From the NCBI GenBank assembly GCA_015063235.1, contig SUSW01000022.1:96000-159999 (forward strand): a stretch of DNA of 64,000 nt, read 5' to 3'. The position numbers and the translations under genes are program-made. This document shows, piece by piece, positions 60,881-64,000 of this stretch; position 1 is the first letter of the stretch; every line of letters starts with the position of its first letter. Origin of the DNA: Thermoplasmata archaeon. Lineage in GTDB: Archaea > Thermoplasmatota > Thermoplasmata > Methanomassiliicoccales > Methanomethylophilaceae. The notes beneath the pieces were generated by a model. It ran no database searches. It was not told the origin of the DNA and worked only from the letters and a program-made list of their open reading frames with translations.

Positions 60881-61068
60881 CCCTGGGGCCACTTAGGGAT
60901 GAGATATTGGGAACAGGGATCAGATACGCCGACGCCACACACCTGGCATGCGCCATACATGCGAAATGCGACTATTTCATCACGACCGACGACCGTGTCC
61001 TGAAGTTCAAAGACGACAGGATTAAAGTTATAAATCCGGTGGACTTAATTTCAATAAAGGAGGAATGA
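60880..61068 (+). pseudogene. PIN-domain (VapC-like) toxin C-terminal remnant
   Basis: EILGTGIRYADATHLACAIHAKCDYFITTDDRVLKFKDDRIKVINPVDLI matches PIN C-terminal half; N-terminal half missing; start approximate. Confidence 0.7.
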
Positions 61069-61069
61069 C

Positions 61070-61303
61070 ATGGATTCCGTAGACGAAGAATACAGCGTCA
61101 GCGAGATGTACAGGCTCGGAATGGACTGCCTGGTCGACAGGTTCGGTATAGTCAATACGGAGAAGTTCCTCGCAGCTGTCAAGACCAGCAACTCCGATTA
61201 CACCAAATGGAGACAGCATTTTTACGACGATATGACGGTCGAGGAGTTCGACGCGGACATGGATGCATATGCTAAGGCCAACGGCAAAGAGGGCAGCAGA
61301 TAA
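61070..61303 (+). CDS. Putative antitoxin-like partner of the PIN toxin
   Basis: CLVDRFGIVNTEKFLAAVKTSNSDYTKWRQHFYDDMTVEEFDADM; resembles small proteins recalled beside PIN genes. Confidence 0.6.
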   Translation: MDSVDEEYSVSEMYRLGMDCLVDRFGIVNTEKFLAAVKTSNSDYTKWRQHFYDDMTVEEFDADMDAYAKANGKEGSR

Positions 61304-61395
61304 GACCGGAGACCCAGGCCCGCTTGAAGGCCTTTAAGGGATCGCATCCAGAATAAATGACCAGACAGGATGCTACGAACAATCCATTCGAATGA

Positions 61396-63230
61396 TTACT
61401 CGAGTTTCCGATCATTTAGATTAATTGATACGACCTCAGATCTGTTCTGATCCTGATGTTCATCTGATGTGTTCGCTGCCCCGTCGAGATGTTGATTACT
61501 ATCTGAATCCACCGATGTAACCTGCGCTTCGAACATCTTCTGGATAGTCTTACGGTTGTAATAGAACAGTCCTAAGAGCGCTAAAATCATAACAACAATA
61601 TGTTCCCAAATTCCAAGGTTGTTCGGTACGACGATCAGGATTATGATGGCAATCATCATGCTGAGCATAGTAGTACTGGACACCCTGAACATGTCCGATA
61701 TGCTCAGTCCCTCCTGGTTGACATGGATTGTGTTGGATCCCTTATCGCTAATTGCTCTGGCCATCCTGAGGTTATTCACGATAACGTAGATTGGAAAAAA
61801 ATGCCAAAGAGATTCATCAACAGCATCAGTATGCTCCATATCAGGATGGTACCTCCTATGTATTCCGCGAACCAACCAGCCAAAGCCGGATTGATCAGAA
61901 CGAACACTATCTCCACCAAGATGACGGCCAATACACAAACATAATTCATAGTCATCAGTTTTCTGAACTGTTTCCTGGTCCTCCTCGATGAGACTGCCAC
62001 ATTGGCATACAGGTTGTCTCTAGCATCCTTGATCCTTTTGAACACCCCCATAAGACCTGCAGGACACGCTTCGATGGCTTTATCCCAAACATCGCCTGAC
62101 GACCTGGAAAGAATCGGGAGGATGATCATCGAGATGAGAGCCGCACCTATGACAGAGGTATAGAATGCCTCATCCACTACCCCATAATCCAAAGCCTGTT
62201 TAGAGATGATGAATGCGAATTCTCCCATGGCGACCAAACTCACGGCGGAAATGAATCCGTTACGGGGAGACTCATTGCCAAGCCAATATCCGAGGAAAAC
62301 AGTGCTGGATTTCAAAATGGCATAAACAAGATACAGAACAAGGATCAACACCACGTTATCTAAAACAGATTGGACAGAGATTTCCATACCCACCGATATG
62401 AAAAACATGGACATGAGAAGATTCTTCATAGGTTCGAAGTCGTGACTCAACTCTCTGCTTTTCCTACTGGGGGATATCATCATTCCCAAGAGGAAGGCAC
62501 CTATGGCGACAGATAGCCCAGCGAATTGCGCTAATAGGGCCATGCCGAATGCCGACCCTATCGCCAGTATCAATAGGACCTCATAATGGACATTATCCGA
62601 TACCCAATTGATTATGAGGGGCACGAATTTGAGGCCTACGATTATGCTTACGAGCATGAAGACCGCAATACTGATTATCATCGCAATCAGACCGTTGGAA
62701 TCCAACTCGCTGCCGGCCATCATCGGAGTAATCATCGAAAGTATGATGACCTGGCCTATATCCTCCATGATGGTTATCAGAACTATCGTATCTATGTGGT
62801 CCTTATCAAGGCGGTTCTGAGTTTTGAGAACAGCCATCACGACGGCCGTACTGGATCCAGATATGATTCCTCCCAAGCATATACTCTGAACGTTATTGAA
62901 CCCCATCAGGGTGCCTGCTACCACACCTCCGAGCACCATCAGAGGAAGCTGAACCAATGCAACTATAATTGCCAAGGTACCTTGTTTCCGGATCTTCTTC
63001 AGATTGATTTCCATCCCTATGCAGAACATCAGGGTAATCAATCCCATATCTGAAAGAATCTCGACGATGTCCTCCGAATCCTCATCCATAACCCATACAT
63101 TCGCGATGATGATTCCGGCCATCAGATAACCAATCAGAGGCGGGAGTTTCAGTTTGTTGAAAATGATGGAACATACCGATGCCACCAACAGGAAAACTGC
63201 CAAATTGGTCATCAATACGATCTCATCCAT
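61396..63230 (-). CDS. CPA2-family (Kef-type) Na+/H+ antiporter with -1 frame break at T7 run
   Basis: MDEIVLMTNLAVFLLVASVCSIIFNKLKLPPLIGYLMAGIIIANV...; frame 1 ends FGIFFQSTLS*, the overlapping frame continues HFFPIYVIVNNLRMARAISDKGSNTIHV to 61396. Confidence 0.8.
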
Positions 63231-63449
63231 GCAACCAGAAATAGAATAGTTGCTTGAAGATGAATATGTTTCTATTAATGGCCAGATAAGAACCAATACC
63301 GAGTTTTAACTCCGGTACAATTCAATATTCGAAAATCTAACGATTTTGATAACCTTCGTCTCACTTCACTCTATAATTCCATACTTACGCTATTTTTCGT
63401 TCAGTTTTAACTCAGGTTATCTCTATCAAATCGTGGTCCGAATCCCGCT

Positions 63450-63625
63450 TCGCTTCGTTCGCGTGATTCGTCCTGGGTCGGGCCGGCGCCTCGGCAGAGC
63501 CTACGGCGCCCGACCCTCTGATATGAATACTTGTTGCATTCCATAAAAATTGAAGCCAGACCGCGACCGTGCCCGCGGCCTTCGGCCGGCTGGGCAACGG
63601 CCGTCGGCCTGCCTTACCTGTTTGG
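63450..63625. other. GC-rich hairpin-dense noncoding region
   Basis: Imperfect inverted repeats gggtcgggccggcgcc...ggcgcccgaccc and CGGCC-ttc-GGCCG in an otherwise AT-rich intergenic region. Confidence 0.4.
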
Positions 63626-64000
63626 ATAAGATACTAAGTGTGATAAAAGCGGCATCAGCGGAATAGGTTCCCGACCCTGCTAATGATGCCCTCACCCTGG
63701 AGCTGATGAATACCAGATACAAGGAGGCTGCCTGAGGTTACGACCATGTTCCATAGTCGCCCGGGCAGGAGCGGAGGGGCAGGGAGAATCAAGAATGCAC
63801 TAATTTCGATCTTAGAGATTGAAATCGAAAACCGTTACAGTACCCCTACCCATGTTGGACGAGGAAAGGGGCCATGGCCAAAGCCATGATCCTGTGAAAA
63901 TAAAACGGCAGTCCGAACACCGTCCATAAAGCGGCTACAGCACACAACCTTACAGAAAATGCCCTTCGGCAGCATATATTCCAGCGATAGCTATGCGATG

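Follow-up and report, generated by a model that had tools for sequence, protein, structure and literature searches.

In the GeneTack survey, frame breaks that are validated by homology and fall into no cluster are put down not to recoding but to recent indels or errors of sequencing; breaks near the 3′ end are ascribed more to indels, and the programmed class requires a conserved site (PMC3711429). The established chromosomal case of −1 frameshifting in archaea, as described in a review of archaeal recoding, is fucA of Sulfolobus solfataricus, whose site is not common to all relatives, some of them having a full-length gene, with a one-base difference in an A run (PMC8211752).

Here, we analysed, in an uncultured archaeon, an antiporter gene whose reading frame is broken at a run of seven T's. 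It lies in the window G000:C17:96000-159999, the terminal 64,000 nucleotides of a 159,999-base contig, in an assembly of 54 contigs that is 87% complete. Like the GeneTack singletons (PMC3711429), it presents one broken copy, intact homologs validated by homology, a break towards the 3′ end and no conserved site; nothing about it is notable in comparison with them, except that the sequence left at the break coincides with a slippery heptamer. With fucA (PMC8211752) it shares an archaeal host, a one-base difference in a homopolymer-like heptamer and full-length relatives. The fucA product, however, has been demonstrated experimentally and its site is accompanied by a putative stem-loop and a rare codon, whereas the antiporter shows no structure signal and is known from sequence alone. 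We find that the break is by far most probably unprogrammed: a singleton homopolymer indel in which the T run has changed in length by one base, either through a recent mutation or through a consensus error.

An antiporter gene broken at a T7 run

The 0-frame part of the gene occupies 61776..63230 on the minus strand and encodes 484 residues from the ATG at 63230, the likely start, to a TGA at 61778-61776, with the whole exchanger domain inside. This product matches the Pfam family PF00999 (Na_H_Exchanger) over residues 16-374 (E 1.8e-58), the PDB sequences of a Na+/H+ antiporter (4bwz) and of KefC (8bxg) over residues 12-375, and TIGR00932 (E 1.6e-44, below the curated cut-off). The gene encodes a CPA2-like monovalent cation/proton antiporter. 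The PF00999 exchanger core is common to this protein and to CPA2 antiporters such as NapA and KefC; in contrast to these, the protein carries a C-terminal module of four hydrophobic segments (residues ~429-447, 467-485, 518-536 and 540-558) followed by a polar tail, for which no Pfam match above the cut-off and no NCBIfam match was found. The module is common to the relatives of the antiporter compared here (L005-L009). Within the family it evolves faster than the core, and its variable polar tail often ends near a VSI motif.

Of the four C-terminal hydrophobic segments, the second ends where the frame breaks. On the minus strand, the junction reads CTC TTT GGC ATT TTT TTC CAA TCT ACG TTA TCG TGA, with the T7 run at 61795..61801, ~2.2 kb from the contig end, forming together with C61794 an in-phase T_TTT_TTC heptamer. 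The two open reading frames, 61776..63296 and 61396..61938 (both minus strand), overlap by 163 nt at 61776-61938, in agreement with the initial annotation, which had placed a break at this heptamer within a frame overlap of ~160 nt. Its statement that the 0 frame ends ten codons later holds if one counts from GGC and includes the stop; past TTC there are only five sense codons. A −1 shift on T_TTT_TTC yields ...LFGIFF followed by PIYVIVNNLRMARAISDKGSNTI, which aligns without a gap with intact relatives (LIGIYIPIHTIVSN, LILIYIPIYFIVHN). The −1-frame continuation (61396..61794, minus strand, ending in TAA) supplies the last 132 residues, i.e., the remainder of the module with two more hydrophobic segments and the polar tail. 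Its homology to the C-termini of relatives exceeds chance, and the earlier proposal that the −1 frame continues the antiporter is borne out. The part of the −1 open reading frame upstream of the T7 run (61802..61938, minus strand) overlaps the 0-frame gene; the conserved frame there is the 0 frame, and the −1 frame is open by chance and does not code.

Upstream of the antiporter gene, the window also contains a 15-nt near-identical direct repeat (AGTTTTAACTCMGGT) at 63302-63316 and 63403-63417, which may be due to chance.

Relatives read through the junction in a single frame

Antiporter matches are present in 60 of the 60 genomes searched, with strong matches (E <= 1e-150) in 30 of the 31 genomes of the genus, mostly open frames of ~570-690 codons with no internal stop. 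In a codon-level alignment, every ortholog and close paralog that aligns across the junction has a single uninterrupted frame and reads straight into the equivalent of PIYVIVNN, through codons such as GGG ATC TAC ATC CCG ATC or CTG ATC TAC ATA CCG ATA. Neither the T_TTT_TTC heptamer nor a T6 in heptamer phase occurs among these aligned sequences, and the longest T run anywhere in the aligned relatives' genes is 3-5. The slippery site is thus private to the antiporter copy in the window. Uninterrupted relatives without the heptamer had been named in advance as the observation that would speak against the initial annotation, and all aligned relatives are of this kind. With intact homologs and a break in one copy only, the gene falls into the singleton indel or error class.

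The same genome also has two intact antiporter paralogs on contig C3, 57% and 48% identical, both of which read through the junction. They lie ~9 kb apart (G000:C3:17791-19227 and G000:C3:28110-29546), and two nearby antiporter copies are likewise seen in several other genomes of the genus (e.g., G023:C2, G013:C1 and G014:C11). A scan of genome contigs for closer strains returned only one relative, 76% identical, and among the 31 genomes of the genus the nearest is at 77%; a search of plasmids found no copy of the same DNA.

Break rate on the contig and conservation of the tail

The open reading frames of the complete same-genus genome G007 were compared with the 160-kb contig, giving ~160 good matches; the survey of the break rate covered the window's contig and portions of two more. 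Set against these ~160 conserved genes on the contig, the antiporter alone is truly broken, and its break is located at the only T run of at least seven in ~196 kb of long open reading frames. A single true break among so many genes argues against an assembly in which indels are common throughout. Five other frame-change candidates on the contig turned out, on inspection, to be shadow frames on the wrong strand or in the wrong frame, or over-extended starts, and where an A7 run lies near the end of an open reading frame (C17:9463-10473), the stop is a normal one that overlaps the following gene's start.

Over its first ~90 residues, the antiporter tail is 53-59% identical to those of its four nearest relatives, which are slightly less similar among themselves (44-51%). 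Nonsynonymous differences in the tail amount to 0.25-0.29 to the four nearest relatives versus 0.33-0.41 among intact relatives, with synonymous differences of ~0.7. By this comparison the tail is undecayed and as conserved as in intact relatives. It has therefore been translated in frame for almost its entire past, and the break is either very recent or not real. Such a tail is compatible with an assembly error, with a very recent mutation or with efficient recoding; the absence of decay excludes an old pseudogene.

Alternative explanations of the two frames

If RNA polymerase slipped on the T7 run, or if the run switched length within the population (phase variation), the outcome would be a regulatory mixture of in-frame and out-of-frame products. 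Consistent with this, T7 is the longest T run among the surveyed open reading frames, the run arose in the lineage of the window only and the tail is undecayed. However, seven T's is a short run for polymerase slippage, the relatives lack the run with no sign of selection for it, and the pattern is not repeated elsewhere on the contig. We consider a mixture of this kind highly improbable; the comparison with relatives lends no support to two functional isoforms, which had been suggested for this gene.

Programmed −1 ribosomal frameshifting at T_TTT_TTC, giving truncated and full-length antiporter in a set ratio, we regard as very unlikely. The heptamer is a textbook X_XXY_YYZ motif, correctly phased and located where the frames overlap, the −1 product connects gap-free with the C-terminus of relatives, and the tail is still under constraint. 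There is also one archaeal precedent, fucA, and since its site is likewise not found in all relatives, non-conservation alone cannot exclude recoding (PMC8211752). By analogy, we take the lack of conservation as strong, though not absolute, evidence against recoding: the heptamer is missing in every aligned relative, and the slippery-site conservation among orthologs that marks programmed frameshifting is not seen. Folding of the 105 nt of RNA downstream of the heptamer is no more stable than that of shuffled sequence (z = 0.07, pseudoknots being outside the model), with no stimulatory stem-loop at a spacing of 5-9 nt, and an Rfam search of 61000-64000 gave no match.

The heptamer itself adds little. 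Among 205 long open reading frames (196 kb, three contigs), T_TTT_TTC is found in phase at two sites, which is not more than chance, and the other occurrence, outside the window, lies among the last few codons, ahead of the normal stop, of an intact gene (G000:C17:76822-78546, minus strand) that is 86% identical to its G007 ortholog and shows no frame change. By eye, this gene is B12-binding/radical-SAM-like, and it offers a useful negative control for the heptamer. Moreover, when a slightly longer T run in the same phase loses one base, T_TTT_TTC is the necessary outcome, so the heptamer is weak as separate evidence and is given no weight of its own. The classical −1 slippery site of the initial annotation is indeed present and in phase, but its occurrence does not exceed chance; with no heptamer in relatives, no downstream structure and the same heptamer harmless in an intact gene, its proposal of programmed frameshifting is not sustained. 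A −1 recoding site that is specific to this lineage, arose recently and controls the proportion of isoforms having or lacking the last two membrane segments is likewise very unlikely.

A split into two genes, with the tail translated separately, e.g., by re-initiation after the 0-frame stop at the in-frame ATG at ~61765, is scarcely credible, because although this ATG lies about a dozen bases past the TGA, the split is absent from all relatives, the tail corresponds to no known domain and no clear ribosome-binding site is seen.

Discussion

The single one-base length change in the T run is our preferred explanation, under which the last 132 antiporter codons would be put out of frame. We infer that the change is either a very recent indel or an assembly consensus error, the two being roughly equally probable. 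One point against this explanation is that a T7 run is somewhat unexpected here, TTT being a rare Phe codon in the genome (340 TTT versus 2393 TTC codons in the surveyed sequence). The one-base homopolymer error raised at the outset is thus retained in a broader form that also covers a genuine, recent indel of one base, both agreeing with intact relatives that lack the heptamer. If it is a real mutation, the indel would be very recent, and fixed or polymorphic in the sampled population.

As to the fate of the protein, we infer that a real break would leave a 484-residue product in which the exchanger core is complete but only the first two of the four C-terminal hydrophobic segments remain, the other two being lost along with the polar tail. 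Accidental slippage on U UUU UUC might still give a little full-length product, and the two intact paralogs in the genome could cover for the broken antiporter.

For the study of recoding, the locus carries a caution that a heptamer alone is weak evidence, as one-base loss in a T run, when in phase, leaves a perfect slippery site. Should lineage-specific recoding nevertheless prove true, the antiporter would be the second chromosomal archaeal case after fucA, and its demonstration would lengthen what is a very short list for archaea.
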